64,000 nt of DNA from an uncultured Aquimarina sp. Its GTDB lineage: Bacteria; Bacteroidota; Bacteroidia; Flavobacteriales; Flavobacteriaceae. Shown one piece after another: positions 54,544 through 62,131 of the stretch. Position numbers and translations under genes: made by a program. How positions within the stretch are numbered: the first letter of the stretch is position 1; every line of letters begins with the position of its first letter. Location of the stretch: assembly GCF_947492965.1 (NCBI RefSeq), contig NZ_CANLOZ010000011.1, forward strand, positions 1 through 64,000, in the 5' to 3' direction. A model generated the notes under the pieces. It saw only the letters and a program-made list of their open reading frames with translations. It did not search any database and was not told the DNA's origin.

Positions 54544-55473
54544 CTATTTCTCTGAATTATACACCTTGGTTTCACTTATTTTATCATGATCCAATACTGT
54601 AAACCCTTCATCATCATAATGAAATGCAGGAACGAAAGCTTCATCAATTTTTATATCATTAAGAACATAAGAGTGCACCTGATGAACTTCTTGAGTAAAA
54701 GACTCATCATAATAACTTATCAAGATCAGTACTTCTCCGTGTAATTTAGATAAGTCTTCGCGTTTAAACTCCGCTAATGGACTAGTTTCTGTAATGGGAT
54801 GCACTATGGTCCAAGTAGTAGGCAAATAAGTAATTTGACTTCTCTCTAATTTAAGATTGTAAAAATTATTTACATATTTAGCACCTTCTGTTTGTTGAGA
54901 TAGCGCTAAGGTAACTTCAGCTTTTGGACGTATCATTACATTAGTACTTCGGCTCATTAACCGGAACATAATACAATCATTTCCATTATGTTCTCTGAGC
55001 ACCATTCTTTTACTAAATCTTATACTCGATTTTGGTTTAGAAAATCTTCCATACAACAATCCTGTAATAAAAGAAAAACTTAAAAGTCCTACTAACGCTT
55101 CTATAGAAGAAATTACCCCAAAAACCACTCCCTTAGGAGCCATTGCTCCATACCCTACCGTAGTTACTGTTTGGGCAGAAAAAAAGAATGCTTTTAGAAA
55201 ATCACCAAATAAACTACCTGTCGGAACTGTAATGGCAGAAATACCTATAGACACATAAATTATAGCAAAAACTGAATTTACAAAAACATACCCAAGAAAT
55301 ACCCAGCAAAAAAACTTCAACCAGCTGATACTAATCAAATAATCGTAACTCCTTGAAATCGAAGTACGCCTATTGATATGTTTTATATTAAAAGAACCAT
55401 CAGAACTGATAAATCGTTTCGCTAACTTATCTGATGATAAACCAATCCCAGGATCTTTTATTTTTTTTGCCAT
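54544..55473 (-). CDS. Inward rectifier (Kir-type) potassium channel
   Basis: This 309-residue channel has two membrane helices around a pore loop TVTTVGYGAMAP with selectivity filter Thr105-Val-Gly-Tyr-Gly109. A large cytoplasmic immunoglobulin-like domain follows (about 155-300), the layout of KirBac channels. FSKRMVLREHNGNDCIMFRLMSRSTN is the conserved entry to that domain. It starts nine bases after the dapA stop and is the end of the DUF6913-dapA-channel series. A functional link to lysine synthesis is not obvious. Confidence 0.93.
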   Translation of the reverse strand: MAKKIKDPGIGLSSDKLAKRFISSDGSFNIKHINRRTSISRSYDYLISISWLKFFCWVFLGYVFVNSVFAIIYVSIGISAITVPTGSLFGDFLKAFFFSAQTVTTVGYGAMAPKGVVFGVISSIEALVGLLSFSFITGLLYGRFSKPKSSIRFSKRMVLREHNGNDCIMFRLMSRSTNVMIRPKAEVTLALSQQTEGAKYVNNFYNLKLERSQITYLPTTWTIVHPITETSPLAEFKREDLSKLHGEVLILISYYDESFTQEVHQVHSYVLNDIKIDEAFVPAFHYDDEGFTVLDHDKISETKVYNSEK

Positions 55474-55482
55474 AAAAGCTTG

Positions 55483-56358
55483 TTAATTACTTTTTACGAA
55501 CTCTTCTATTTTATCAGCTAAATCTTTAGAAACAGGAACTAAAGGTAATCGTACATAATCATCACAAACACCTTTTTTCTTTAAAATATTTTTTATACCC
55601 GCTGGATTACCTTCCTCAAAAGCATAATCCAAAACAGGTAACAATTTATATAAAATTTCAAATCCTTCTTTAGTATCACCAGAAAGTCCTAACCTAATCA
55701 TGTTGGAAAATTCTTCTGGAAACCCTTGACCAATTACACTAATTACTCCATCACCTCCAGCTGCTACCAAAGGAAGTGCTAGCGCATCATCTCCAGAAAT
55801 CACCAAGAAATCTTTAGGCTTATCTTTTAAAATTCTAAGTACTTGTGTAAAATCACCTGTCGCTTCTTTAATTCCAACAATTTTATCTAATTTGGATAAT
55901 CTTAATGTTGTTTCTGCACTCATATTTGTTCCAGTACGTGAAGGGACATTATATAACAACACAGGTAACGGAGACTGATCATTTATCATTTTATAATGTT
56001 GATAAATTCCTTCTTGACTTGGTTTGTTATACATTGGCACAACAGATAAGATAGCATCAAAATCTGAAGTATCCGTATCTTTCATTTCTTGTAGAATCGC
56101 TGCGGTATTATTACCGCCAATACCTATAACTAAAGGTAATCTTTTGTTATTTATTTTTACAATATGCTGTACTAACTCCTTTTTTTCTTCTTTTGAAAGT
56201 GTAACTGACTCTGCCGTAGTTCCTAGTACAACTAAGTATTCTACACCGCCATTTATACAATATTCTACTAACGATTCTACTCCTTTGTAATCAATTGAAC
56301 CATTACTATTAAAAGGCGTTGCTAATGCAACACCAGTTCCTTTCAGAAAAGCACTCAT
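55483..56358 (-). CDS. dapA: 4-hydroxy-tetrahydrodipicolinate synthase
   Basis: DapA condenses pyruvate with aspartate semialdehyde in the diaminopimelate/lysine pathway. The 291-residue protein has the GTTAES motif at 46-51 and YNVPSRTGTNM with Tyr136 and Arg141. The Schiff-base Lys164 is in VGIKEATGD, and VISGDDALALPLVAAGGDGVISV is the second signature. It follows the DUF6913 gene with one base between and precedes the Kir channel gene by nine bases. Confidence 0.97.
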   Translation of the reverse strand: MSAFLKGTGVALATPFNSNGSIDYKGVESLVEYCINGGVEYLVVLGTTAESVTLSKEEKKELVQHIVKINNKRLPLVIGIGGNNTAAILQEMKDTDTSDFDAILSVVPMYNKPSQEGIYQHYKMINDQSPLPVLLYNVPSRTGTNMSAETTLRLSKLDKIVGIKEATGDFTQVLRILKDKPKDFLVISGDDALALPLVAAGGDGVISVIGQGFPEEFSNMIRLGLSGDTKEGFEILYKLLPVLDYAFEEGNPAGIKNILKKKGVCDDYVRLPLVPVSKDLADKIEEFVKSN

Positions 56359-56359
56359 A

Positions 56360-56884
56360 TTATATTATCTGTAAAATTTTTAAATATTTTTTTAATTCGG
56401 AAATAAAAAGGTTAGTGTCTTGATCGGCAGAACCTATTACGAGATCATTAATTCTATTATCAATCTCAGCAAAACCAACTTTAAACTTTGCTTTGGAAGC
56501 GGCAGCAACATAATCTAACTCCAATTTACTTTCGGAGTAAAAATTGATTAAAATGTCATAATCCTTTTTTATAAAATCATTCAAAGAATTACTCTTTACA
56601 GAACCTCCAACACCAAAACTTTTATCGTTGTAATAATCGGCATCTTTATCATCTGAAATTTCTTTCTGGTCTTCCTTATACCCCATTACTTTCAAGTTAT
56701 CGGACTTCACACCAAGTTCATTTGCCAACTTAACCACCGACAAAATGTTAACGGATTGCGAAGCATCAATCAAAACTGCTAAATTTCTAATATTAGAAAC
56801 CTCCTTAGCTCTGGATTTTCTTGATTTAATATGAGATTCAACACTCTTTTTTAAAGCATTTCGCTTTAGACCTTTTAAAATCAT
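56360..56884 (-). CDS. DUF6913-like conserved protein beside dapA
   Basis: This 174-residue cytoplasmic protein has a basic helical N-terminus (LKRNALKKSVESHIKSRKSRAKEV). An alpha/beta part follows with LAVLIDASQSVNILSVVKLANELGV, then VGGSVKSNSLNDFIKKDYDILINFYSES and LDYVAAASKAKFKVGFAEIDNR. I believe it is the flavobacterial family DUF6913, known next to dapA, but no function is established. The alternating strands and helices suggest a Rossmann-like fold without a clear nucleotide motif. Its stop is one base before dapA and a -7 element lies upstream, so it heads the operon. Confidence 0.72.
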   Translation of the reverse strand: MILKGLKRNALKKSVESHIKSRKSRAKEVSNIRNLAVLIDASQSVNILSVVKLANELGVKSDNLKVMGYKEDQKEISDDKDADYYNDKSFGVGGSVKSNSLNDFIKKDYDILINFYSESKLELDYVAAASKAKFKVGFAEIDNRINDLVIGSADQDTNLFISELKKYLKILQII

Positions 56885-56905: not shown

Positions 56906-56913
56906 CAAATGTA
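56906..56913 (-). promoter_or_regulatory. Likely -7 element of the DUF6913-dapA-Kir operon (TACATTTG)
   Basis: On the minus strand TACATTTG matches TAnnTTTG 21 bases before the ATG at 56884. A TTTG lies 26 bases further upstream, longer than the usual spacing. Confidence 0.45.
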
Positions 56914-57006: not shown

Positions 57007-57045
57007 TTTAATCTGTTTGATGTAGATTATATCTATCAGATTAAA
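57007..57045 (-). terminator. Weak inverted repeat at the end of the membrane-paralog cluster
   Basis: On the minus strand TTTAATCTG, 21 bases, and CAGATTAAA are followed by TTTATTTGTT. The left arm overlaps the stop codon of the last gene of the cluster. The stem is AT-rich, so this is a tentative terminator. Confidence 0.3.
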
Positions 57046-57748
57046 GATATCTATGGCCTACTTCGTTATTATCTTTCAACTTTACCTCCATAAGAAACTT
57101 CAAGAAACAATATAAGCCAATAATCTCCGTAACATTCGCAAGTACCGTAAAAACCTTACTGTAGTAATAAAAATGATTGATTAAAACCAAGGCATTTACA
57201 AAAAGACAACAACTAGCAGAGATAAATAGCTTAAAATTACCCTCATATTTATCTGCGAGATAAATCACAAAACACGCCCCTACAAATACAAAGAGTGTAA
57301 ACATTATTGCAAAGAATGAAAAAACAACATCCATAAGCGTTGGTAATACCATTTGAGAAACAGAAAAAACCAAATATGCCACCAGGAAAAAACTTATTAT
57401 TATAGGTAATGATGTGAACCTGGTAATTTTGATATCCTTTAGAGTTATATATTTCCTTAATAAAAAAATATTCACCAGATAGAATAAAATTATTGTAAGC
57501 GCTACATGATTAAAATATTTATAAAAATCCAAATAAATCAGAGTATCGCTAGCCATCAGTATTACCATACTAAACGAATAACAAAACCAAATAGATTTTT
57601 TATCTGAGATGCATATAAAAATAAGCGCTAAAGGAATTAATGGTTTAACATATACCAAATGTATATTTTCACAAAGCACTGCAGTAAACACAACCACAAT
57701 AAAGGAAAAACCAAAAAATAAATATGCTAATCTACTATTCTTCTCCAC
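57041..57748 (-). CDS. YhhN-like membrane paralog 4
   Basis: This 235-residue membrane protein has about eight helices. HLVYVKPLIPLALIF (about 30-44) is the VKP motif of the YhhN/TMEM86 lysoplasmalogenase family, and VILMASDTLIYLD carries Asp68 at the first conserved acidic position. The second conserved position, SD in the family, reads CLFVNALVLINHFYY, so Asp is lost. Lysoplasmalogenase activity is therefore doubtful and another membrane role is possible. The start is GTG at 57748. It lies 58 bases after paralog 3 and is the last of four tandem copies. Confidence 0.7.
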   Translation of the reverse strand: MEKNSRLAYLFFGFSFIVVVFTAVLCENIHLVYVKPLIPLALIFICISDKKSIWFCYSFSMVILMASDTLIYLDFYKYFNHVALTIILFYLVNIFLLRKYITLKDIKITRFTSLPIIISFFLVAYLVFSVSQMVLPTLMDVVFSFFAIMFTLFVFVGACFVIYLADKYEGNFKLFISASCCLFVNALVLINHFYYYSKVFTVLANVTEIIGLYCFLKFLMEVKLKDNNEVGHRYL

Positions 57749-57806
57749 CTAACTCAGTCTTGGTAACTTTAATTCCGCTTTCAAAATAATCATTTCAAAT
57801 ATGGTA

Positions 57807-58502
57807 TCAAAAAAACTCAACAGTATTAGGTTTCAGGTCATTTTGTTCAATAAAAAATTTAATTAAAAAGTAGTGACCAAAAACTTGCAGAACATTGCTC
57901 AGAATAACAAATACGTCTAAATGAATATACAACTTATTCAATACCGTAATAATATTCACAATCAGAAAGCTCGAGGCAGCTACCATAAGCGAATAACTGA
58001 TTACTGTTCTACTGTTTAAATAAATATAATAACAAAGCCCTATGAACAAAATAAATAAAACAATAAAAACATTGAGATACAATTGATCCTCCGATATACT
58101 ACCCGAAATCATGTCTGCAACAGAATAAATCACATAAGATATCAATCCCATGGTAATTAACAACTGTATCGTAAAGATCTTTTTAAATTGTATTTTAATT
58201 CTTTTTAAACTCTTGCGTAGTAGCAGAATATTAAAACAGTAGTACAAAGACATCAATACATTAATTATCCTGAAATATTTTTTAAAATCAATGACCGCTA
58301 AGATTTCAGAAATCAATACGAACAACAATCCCAAAATAACTAAATATTGTATCCTTTCTACCTTAGACACATAGATCAAAAACACAGAAGAAACCACTAA
58401 AGTTTTAGTATAAACTAACCAATTTTCATTAAAAATTGCTGTTATTAGAAGTAAAACCCCAGAGATATACAATAGCCGATAAGAAAGTTTAGTTCTATCC
58501 AA
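57807..58502 (-). CDS. YhhN-like membrane paralog 3
   Basis: This 231-residue eight-helix membrane protein is the most diverged of the four. YTKTLVVSSVFLIYV stands where the family has VKP, the first acidic position is Glu66 (VLISEILAVID), and the second reads FLIVNIITVLNKLY with Asn183 in place of Asp. It pairs with paralog 4 in the tail pattern (VFVILSNVLQVFGHYFLIKFFIE against VFTVLANVTEIIGLYCFLKFLME), so these two arose from one ancestor. The start is TTG at 58502, with 19 bases to paralog 2 upstream. Activity cannot be inferred. Confidence 0.68.
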   Translation of the reverse strand: MDRTKLSYRLLYISGVLLLITAIFNENWLVYTKTLVVSSVFLIYVSKVERIQYLVILGLLFVLISEILAVIDFKKYFRIINVLMSLYYCFNILLLRKSLKRIKIQFKKIFTIQLLITMGLISYVIYSVADMISGSISEDQLYLNVFIVLFILFIGLCYYIYLNSRTVISYSLMVAASSFLIVNIITVLNKLYIHLDVFVILSNVLQVFGHYFLIKFFIEQNDLKPNTVEFF

Positions 58503-58521
58503 AATTACTTTAATTTACATT

Positions 58522-59217
58522 CTAAAATCCTTCGAACTCTTCTGATTTAAGATACTTATATTTTGTAATCATGTAGTTAACCAAAAACACTAAAGCCAAT
58601 GGTTCACAGATTAAACGAATCACTTTTAACTCATTGGATTCCAGATAAAAATGATCAATAAGTAAAATAAAATCACTAAAGGAAAAATTCAACATGGCTA
58701 AAAAAAACCATAATGACTTTTCTGATCTAATATTAATGTAGTGCATTGCAGCTACAATCAGCAGAACATACAGCAACAACAGATGAAGAAAACCTATTAA
58801 ACTTAGACTCCCCATAGGTCCTCTAAGCACAAAATAAGTCATAAAAAATATAGCCGTGTATAAAGAGCTACCTAATACCAAAGTAAAAACATCTCTTTGA
58901 TTGTATTTAAAAGATTTATGATTGTAATACAGAAAATAAAACAATATCAGATATCCAATAATTCTGATAAACATAATATCTCCAATTGTTATTTGATGAC
59001 CTAATATTCCTATTAATTCTGCGAAAAAAAATATGGAAAGAACAATAAAATGAAGTAGTTTACTTTTTTTACTACTCCAAAAATAAAATATCAAAATAAT
59101 CATAAACAGGAAAGGTTTGCTATAAGTGTATAACAGCGGAAACTGAAACACAAAACCTATTACCTGTAAAACAATCAAAAAAGAAATTAAAAATCTTAGT
59201 AGTTTTCCTCCATCCAT
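58522..59217 (-). CDS. YhhN-like membrane paralog 2
   Basis: This 231-residue eight-helix membrane protein aligns almost without gaps to paralog 1: YSKPFLFMIIL at 32-42, GYLILFYFLYYNHKS near 88-102, HYINIRSEKSLWFFLAMLNFSFSDFILLIDHFY near 159-191. The second acidic site Asp182 is kept, but the first is Glu67 (FFFAELIGIL) instead of Asp. It may be active with altered properties or a non-enzymatic relative. The ATG at 59217 is 117 bases after paralog 1 and its end is 19 bases before paralog 3. Confidence 0.73.
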   Translation of the reverse strand: MDGGKLLRFLISFLIVLQVIGFVFQFPLLYTYSKPFLFMIILIFYFWSSKKSKLLHFIVLSIFFFAELIGILGHQITIGDIMFIRIIGYLILFYFLYYNHKSFKYNQRDVFTLVLGSSLYTAIFFMTYFVLRGPMGSLSLIGFLHLLLLYVLLIVAAMHYINIRSEKSLWFFLAMLNFSFSDFILLIDHFYLESNELKVIRLICEPLALVFLVNYMITKYKYLKSEEFEGF

Positions 59218-59334
59218 TATAATTTAATGTAAAAAAGTGCAAATATCCCTCACTCCTTACTCCGTTTAACAATTTTTCCTTTGGTTAAGATACTAAATTT
59301 CAAATAAATACCTAAAACAGGAATTAAACTTCAA

Positions 59335-60018
59335 TTAATTTTTTATTTTAAGAGAATCAGGACTTGAAATTTTAAATTTCACTAGAAAGTATACTGCTAA
59401 CAATTGGTAGATGGAGTTAATAATTTTTAATTCTAATGAAGGAACATAAAATCGATCTAACGCAAAACAAGCATCACTAATTACAAAATTAAGTATCGCA
59501 ATTACAAACCAAAGAGATCTAGGAGACCTAATGTTTACGTACTGAAAGACAGCACCTATTAAAAGCAGATAAAGAATGATTATATAGATAATACCAAATG
59601 ATCTTATAGCGCCCATATTCTGATTCGTAACAGCATATATCTCATAGACAATAAGCGTCCACAAAACTAAAAAAGCTGTCAGATATACAATATCTATATT
59701 ATTGTAATCTATTTTTTTATGATTCCGATATAGAAAATAGAATAAGATAAAGTAACATAAGGTATAGCTTAACAAAACATATCTAAACCCATTTTCTATT
59801 CCCGTAAGTAAAAAAATATCACCTAAAAAACAGAGGAGTAAAACAACTGCAAATAATGAATCAACCTTTTTTACATTAAACCAATATAACATAAAAAACA
59901 GGGGAACAGTCATTGGTTTTACATACAACTCCAAAGCAGAATTCTGCAAGATTGTACTAAGAACACATAAACTTCCCGTTAGCAACAACAATATTTTGAT
60001 AAGTGTTCTTATTTTCAC
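59335..60018 (-). CDS. YhhN-family (lysoplasmalogenase-like) membrane protein, paralog 1
   Basis: This 227-residue eight-helix protein is the most family-like of the four. YVKPMTVPLFFMLYW is at 32-46, CFLGDIFLLTG carries Asp67 and NFVISDACFALDRFY carries Asp182; both acidic residues are conserved in YhhN/TMEM86 proteins, which cleave the vinyl ether bond of lysoplasmalogens in animals. Bacterial function is less certain. The start is GTG at 60018. It heads a run of four tandem paralogs on the minus strand and follows ligA at 79 bases. Confidence 0.78.
   Translation of the reverse strand: MKIRTLIKILLLLTGSLCVLSTILQNSALELYVKPMTVPLFFMLYWFNVKKVDSLFAVVLLLCFLGDIFLLTGIENGFRYVLLSYTLCYFILFYFLYRNHKKIDYNNIDIVYLTAFLVLWTLIVYEIYAVTNQNMGAIRSFGIIYIIILYLLLIGAVFQYVNIRSPRSLWFVIAILNFVISDACFALDRFYVPSLELKIINSIYQLLAVYFLVKFKISSPDSLKIKN

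Positions 60019-60097: not shown

Positions 60098-62131
<2,034 letters not shown>

Follow-up and report, generated by a model that had tools for sequence, protein, structure and literature searches.

Members of the YhhN family are generally regarded as lysoplasmalogenases (EC 3.3.2.2), membrane enzymes that hydrolyze the vinyl ether of lysoplasmalogen lipids, a view argued in PMC9052158, and a G protein-coupled receptor (GPCR)-like topology with an extra N-terminal helix has been published for Escherichia coli YhhN (PMC4602095). For TMEM86A and TMEM86B, PMC11994398 reports alanine exchanges at eight residues (K43, G81, D82, H104, G182, S189, D190, and Y213 in TMEM86A numbering), all of which were crucial except G81. 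Among the crucial residues, activity dropped below 10% for every alanine mutant, Asp and Tyr included, other than those at His (both proteins), Gly182 (TMEM86A), and Ser (TMEM86B). Here, we describe an array of four tandem genes, numbered y1 to y4 in order of transcription, in a 64,000-nucleotide (nt) stretch from an uncultured Aquimarina sp. (contig NZ_CANLOZ010000011.1; the whole stretch is called the window below). All four proteins belong to the YhhN/TMEM86 superfamily, and, as read from aligned sequences, none has the full active site tested in TMEM86. With no complete site in any copy, the array probably serves some purpose other than the lysoplasmalogenase reaction.

Kinship with YhhN and altered active sites

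The initial annotation, made from the DNA alone, described four adjoining same-strand genes of 227 to 235 codons encoding YhhN/TMEM86-like proteins with about eight helices. The open reading frames lie as described, within positions 57041 to 60018 on the minus strand. In the Pfam search, y1 matched YhhN (PF07947) at 50.5 bits, above the cutoff of 25.6, and was the sole PF07947 match in its own genome, whereas y2 fell under the cutoff (15.5 bits; E value, 0.015) and y3 and y4 gave no PF07947 match. When the alignment of each ortholog group was compared by hhalign with 25 canonical YhhN proteins, E values were 7.9e-14 (y1), 9.3e-6 (y2), 4.8e-9 (y3), and 1.5e-7 (y4); column-reversed control alignments, which preserve hydrophobic composition, gave 0.064, 0.0036, 0.69, and 0.17, respectively. 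Since the forward values are far below those of the controls, the homology of y1 to y4 to YhhN goes beyond chance, and it spans most of the protein length. These comparisons and the trees described below bear out the proposed kinship of all four. Placement of y3 or y4 in an unrelated family had been named as the finding that would speak against it. No Pfam family matched y4, and hits of y3 to FUSC (Pfam; E value, 0.52) and to TrbE (NCBIfam; E value, 0.023; 14.9 bits against a cutoff of 94) were taken as chance; the profile comparison supports YhhN for both proteins.

AlphaFold2 models of y1 and y4, the two proteins modeled, were all-helical, with a mean predicted local distance difference test score (pLDDT) of 85.7 and a predicted template modeling score (pTM) of 0.83 for y1 (93 alignment rows) and 91.7 and 0.88 for y4 (60 alignment rows). 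Eight membrane helices can be read in them, as the initial annotation had expected, if one DSSP helix of 52 to 57 residues is counted as two. VIA-align matched both models mainly to GPCRs and rhodopsins in the PDB, with Z scores of ~9 to 11 over 138 to 185 residues, values that are also common between unrelated helical bundles; the top match of y4, a chain of Epstein-Barr virus LMP1, was taken as generic similarity of this kind. Foldseek found nothing in the PDB at an E value of ≤0.001 for either model, and no PDB chain matched the array profile or the canonical YhhN profile at an E value of ≤1.

Residues were counted in MAFFT columns for 36 y1 proteins (the window and 35 further loci), 27 y2 proteins, 27 y3 proteins, and 37 y4 proteins. 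The eight TMEM86-tested residues (KGDHGSDY) were all present in 30 of 30 canonical flavobacterial YhhN proteins, a biased set in that these were the top scorers and one of them (L055; L and G numbers are our handles for loci and genomes) doubles as the first gene of the L100 array. Both aspartates that had been called conserved in the family are therefore found throughout this set. At the His column, another eight relatives, located away from ligA, carried His (six proteins) or Gln (two proteins). In the array, His and the C-terminal Tyr were replaced in nearly all sequences of each type. y1 retained Lys, Gly, and both Asp residues in 36/36 sequences and Ser in 34/36, and it carried Tyr at the His column, Ala at the second Gly, and Gln at the Tyr column in 36/36; it thus scored five of the eight residues, or four in the two rows with Cys at S189. 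The Tyr-to-Gln exchange is gapless between flanking FY and AxYF motifs when read by eye; hhalign opens a gap there, and a Tyr sits one residue ahead of the Gln. A stronger statement, that y1 has no His anywhere near its fourth helix, was dropped, since six of the 36 proteins have His within residues 75 to 98, at the ends of that stretch and not at the His column itself.

The other types were more altered. y2 matched the eight sites variably: the first acid was Glu in 22 of 27 sequences and Asp in one, the second Asp was retained in 25, and the His column held Tyr in 24 (a shortened y2, in L109, is gapped at three key columns). y3 typically kept one of the eight residues, with Glu at the first acid in 26/27 sequences; all 27 had Asn at the second acid and had Tyr and Gln in place of the family His and Tyr, respectively. 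y4 typically kept two or three; its first acid was Asp (34/37) or Asn (3/37), its second was Asp (22 sequences), Asn (10), Ser (3), or Thr (2), and in all 37 the His column held Tyr and the Tyr column held Glu. Thus, y1 (K/D/Y/D/Q), y3 (K/E/Y/N/Q), and y4 (K/D/Y/[D or N]/E) have fixed signatures of their own, and y2 is more variable. The acidic pairs of the window genome (Table 1) are exactly those that the initial annotation had listed as a stepwise loss of aspartates. Since the second site of y4 is Asp in 22 of 37 sequences, that description holds for the window genome and not for the lineage.

Distribution and origin of the arrays

The 35 further loci were collected with y1 as the query, so y1 is present in them by construction; 34 carry the name Aquimarina in their titles, and the other belongs to a Bacteroidia bin. 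In all 35, ligA stands before y1 and a DUF6913 gene stands after the array, mostly close to it, with 1.5 to 3 kb of other sequence intervening in a few. All four types were intact in 21 loci, four of which (L171, L175, L176, and L186) had a fifth gene, a second y4. Eight loci had three genes, five had two, and L191 had y1 only; in L181, L185, and L190, y2 was disrupted or survived as a remnant. Across the genus, PF07947 matches were found in 46 of 66 genomes. Classed by score, with position checked in part of them, 39 genomes had a y1-like match (39 to 59 bits), 24 had a canonical match (132 to 154 bits), and 17 had both. The site between ligA and DUF6913 had no array gene in G010, where a 908-amino-acid (aa) gene stands instead (L156:7070-9796), or in G012. 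G005 and G007 had one divergent copy at the ligA site, and G020 had one copy before DUF6913 on a contig without ligA.

In a survey of the phylum, 54 of 296 genomes had PF07947 matches. The expectation that a bacterium usually carries a single yhhN gene holds outside the Flavobacteriaceae, where 34 of the 35 matched genomes had one match and the remaining genome had two on different contigs. Within the family, the window array is not unique, since arrays of three to seven genes occur in other genera. Further arrays at the ligA site comprise four genes in G214 and two each in G203, G302, and G063. The initial annotation knew of no described four-gene array; among the open-licence papers listed in our searches, we noticed, from titles and the starts of abstracts, no YhhN array and no work on YhhN in Flavobacteria, but such arrays do occur in other genomes. 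At one locus of another genus (L107:4747-7437), a lone relative adjoins a divergently transcribed gene for a patatin-like phospholipase (PF01734, 45.6 bits).

Flavobacteriaceae also have further arrays, with seven genes in G173, four in G131, and three each in G103 and G248; gene pairs were seen in G183, G119, and G178. Where copies were counted per genome, up to nine candidates were scored in each, and those counts are to be read as "at least." Among 24 proteins from arrays away from ligA (L097 to L104), the His column was Lys in 19, the second Asp was Glu in 11, and Tyr was kept in 22. The seven tandem paralogs of L098 (G173:C77:42000-57000), with Lys at the His column, are flanked by putative nucleotidyltransferase-like and MtaB-like genes. 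In two arrays (L097:5395-8355 and L100:4883-6352), a canonical first gene with eight of eight residues is followed by altered paralogs.

We built two trees, one of 84 proteins, rooted on canonical YhhN, and one of 71 rows; the tree programs gave long-branch warnings for both. All array proteins fell into one clade (support, 97/96 in the 84-protein tree and 100/99 in the 71-row tree). The pairing of y1 with y2 and of y3 with y4, which had been proposed initially, was recovered in both: y1 and y2 grouped at 100/99 in each, and y3 and y4, with dispersed copies among them, grouped at 95/83 and 99/97, respectively. In the 84-protein tree, y1, y2, and y3 were each monophyletic, and y4 needed two changes, as the dispersed copies fell among its members. 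Their grouping with y4 (100/99) makes it plausible that they were copied out of the array. The group of y3, y4, and dispersed copies lay inside a larger clade (100/99) that also took in two proteins from the G214 ligA-site array and single copies from four congeners. The genome of the window itself holds a fifth, unlinked paralog (contig C2, near 162 kb; L117:9176-9883), which also lacks Lys and the second acid and reads LCDFVIVH at the eight sites.

Single genes directly after ligA in four other genera (L143, L144, L146, and L147) have eight of eight key residues intact. They branched outside the array clade in the 84-protein tree; in the 71-row tree, they and two non-ligA relatives made up a separate clade (99/93). 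In the residue counts and trees, L158 (G020), on a 5.9-kb contig without ligA, was grouped with them. The locus survey and tree support the repeated duplication that had been proposed, and the best reading of the sequences, although not proof, is that a single ligA-linked yhhN gene duplicated in place and that copies dispersed elsewhere. In the 71-row tree, the 22 altered proteins of L097 to L104 grouped together (100/99) and were separate from the lineage at ligA (97/87), so two separate radiations of altered YhhN arrays are likely.

Proposed transcription units, selection, and neighboring genes

The start of y1 overlaps the end of ligA by 1 to 4 nt in 30 of the 35 relatives; in the window, the two are 79 nt apart. 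The y1-y2 spacer, otherwise poorly conserved, contains the element TTTAGTATMTT. Within the 150 nt that follow y1, 22 of the 36 loci have an exact copy (shuffle mean, 0.1) and most others have a variant. No variant was found in L174, L180, L190, L191, or L195, four of which lack y2 and one of which has a broken y2. A TAnnTTTG box lies upstream of DUF6913 in 36/36 stretches (shuffle mean, 7.7). Both comparisons used mononucleotide shuffles, which preserve single-base composition only, and ignore kinship among loci. We take TAnnTTTG to be the Bacteroidota -7 box; a sigma-70 scan gave no signal (19 promoter-like sites against 23.1 in shuffles). Together, these features suggest three units, ligA-y1, y2-y3-y4, and DUF6913-dapA, in which y1 would be expressed together with ligA and y2-y3-y4 would form a separate unit.

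Ratios of nonsynonymous to synonymous substitution (dN/dS; Nei-Gojobori with Jukes-Cantor correction, 13 species pairs, with some genes missing from some pairs, without a significance test) were below 1 for every copy, at 0.02 to 0.34 where dS was finite, with y4 highest overall; values for the comparison genes were 0.02 to 0.04 (ligA) and 0.03 to 0.16 (dapA). By this measure, all four copies look kept by selection.

Farther along, a gene for an inward-rectifier K+ channel (IRK_C; window positions 54544 to 55473) sits between dapA and bamD. It is present in those Aquimarina loci whose flank extends far enough, and BLAST did not detect it at that place in L108, L115, L143 to L145, L159, or L160, which are from other genera.

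Table 1. The array and its flanking features, in window coordinates.
Feature	Position	Strand	Length	Description
y1	59335-60018	minus	227 aa	Membrane protein of the YhhN family; retains D67/D182, with His to Tyr, Gly to Ala, Tyr to Gln
y2	58522-59217	minus	231 aa	Sister of y1; E67/D182
y3	57807-58502	minus	231 aa	E66/N183
y4	57041-57748	minus	235 aa	Relative of y3; D68/N185 in window genome
ligA, NAD-dependent DNA ligase	60098-62092	minus		Upstream flank of array (Pfam)
DUF6913 gene	56360-56884	minus		Downstream flank of array (PF21857, 166 bits)
dapA	55483-56358	minus		Neighbor after DUF6913 (PF00701)
TTTAGTATMTT promoter-like element	59287-59297	minus		In y1-y2 spacer, 59218-59334
TAnnTTTG box (TACATTTG)	56906-56913	minus		Upstream of DUF6913; promoter-like site after array

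Possible functions and comparison with known systems

Our preferred reading, held with about even confidence, is that the array consists of lipid-pocket proteins that arose from a lysoplasmalogenase and changed their chemistry, y1 possibly being a hydrolase of another lipid and y3 most likely being nonhydrolytic. A single ligA-adjacent yhhN gene would have duplicated in place, with some copies dispersed; the intramembrane pocket may still bind a lipid-like molecule, and canonical vinyl-ether hydrolysis would have been lost. Judged by their residues, the best candidates for an altered-substrate hydrolase would be y1 and those y4 proteins, from other species, that have Asp at both sites, and y2, y3, and the y4 of the window genome would more likely be lipid-binding, nonhydrolytic partners. 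A bolder form of this idea, which is possible although we think it rather unlikely, is that the arrays are pseudoenzymes of GPCR topology, lipid receptors or carriers derived from a lysoplasmalogenase, with a pocket chemistry particular to each paralog and with the paralogs acting as a set, and that they were made at least twice in the Flavobacteriaceae. The signatures of the two clades differ, with His to Tyr plus Tyr to Gln or Glu at ligA and His to Lys, often plus Asp to Glu, elsewhere.

Several observations weigh against the preferred reading. In-place duplication is not proven, because non-ligA relatives (L149, L150, L151, L152, and L116) attach at nearly the same point and support for deep forks of the 71-row tree is weak (87/42 and 87/13). 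Copy number is as low as one in L191, where only y1 is present, and in three loci y2 is disrupted or reduced to a remnant; the TTTAGTATMTT element is also seen in two loci that have no y2 (L196 and L197). y4 evolves fastest, several dS values are saturated, and the fold matches are generic (best Z score, 11.3; best Foldseek E value, 0.14). A search for PF10520, which we take to represent CarF/TMEM189-type plasmalogen synthesis, matched 0 of 66 genus genomes; no control genome matched either, so this result is uninformative. Finally, the TMEM86 tests were alanine exchanges in human proteins, and Tyr to Gln or His to Tyr may be tolerated; more than 10% activity remained when His was exchanged in either protein or Gly182 in TMEM86A (PMC11994398).

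The same loss of copies could mean that the genes are relaxed, near-redundant leftovers of a tandem family in birth and death, with little function. The range of one to five copies per locus, the y2 remnants and breaks, the sites without an array gene in G010 and G012, the fast evolution of y4, and two close-pair dN/dS values of 0.33 to 0.34 would all fit. We nevertheless consider this unlikely: dN/dS is below 1 for every copy, copy-specific residues are fixed (in y3, Asn in 27/27 and Gln in 27/27), and a conserved element stands ahead of y2. The model of the initial annotation, with y1 as an active lysoplasmalogenase and y2 to y4 as noncatalytic subunits or lipid sensors assembled with it, draws on the Lys, Gly-Asp, and Ser-Asp (34/36) residues that y1 retains, its score above the Pfam cutoff, and the lack of any other PF07947 match in its genome. 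We found no support for the "one probable enzyme" of that model. y1 cannot safely be called an intact enzyme because its His, Gly182, and Tyr213 equivalents are changed in 36/36 sequences, and it is no simple replacement for canonical YhhN, because, of the 39 genus genomes in which a y1-like match was found, 17 also have a canonical YhhN. With y1 linked to ligA and y2 to y4 seemingly under their own promoter as well, we judge this model quite improbable; the canonical first genes of the arrays in G131 and G178 fit an enzyme with partners better than the window array does. That all four are still lysoplasmalogenases or close vinyl-ether hydrolases, in a family tolerant at these positions, is very unlikely: despite the shared superfamily, the acidic or amide residue at both Asp columns in most sequences, and the residual activity of TMEM86 His mutants, TMEM86 retains less than 10% activity when its Asp or Tyr is exchanged for alanine (PMC11994398), y3 lacks the second Asp in 27/27 sequences, and the first Asp of y2 is Glu in 22/27.

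The group is a large set of YhhN homologues, several of them under family thresholds, for which the lysoplasmalogenase reaction cannot be assumed. Natural sets of paralogs changed at the TMEM86-tested residues would let changes of active site and of function be dissected in a lineage whose gene order and duplication can be read.

Like TMEM86A, TMEM86B, and bacterial YhhN, the array proteins are helical membrane proteins in a family of ~220 to 240 aa, and the y1 and y4 models would fit the GPCR-like topology with its extra N-terminal helix. They differ from these relatives in that they lack the conserved His and Tyr, carry copy-specific changes at the Gly, Asp, Ser, and Asp columns, and are encoded by several copies in tandem. 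The single yhhN genes next to ligA in other genera occupy the same site and are among the nearest outside relatives, but those are single copies with all eight residues intact. Closest in organization are the other Flavobacteriaceae arrays (L097 to L104; G131, G173, G103, G178, G183, G119, and G054), which are likewise neighboring paralogs with altered active-site residues; they stand at other loci, form a separate clade, and bear a different signature.

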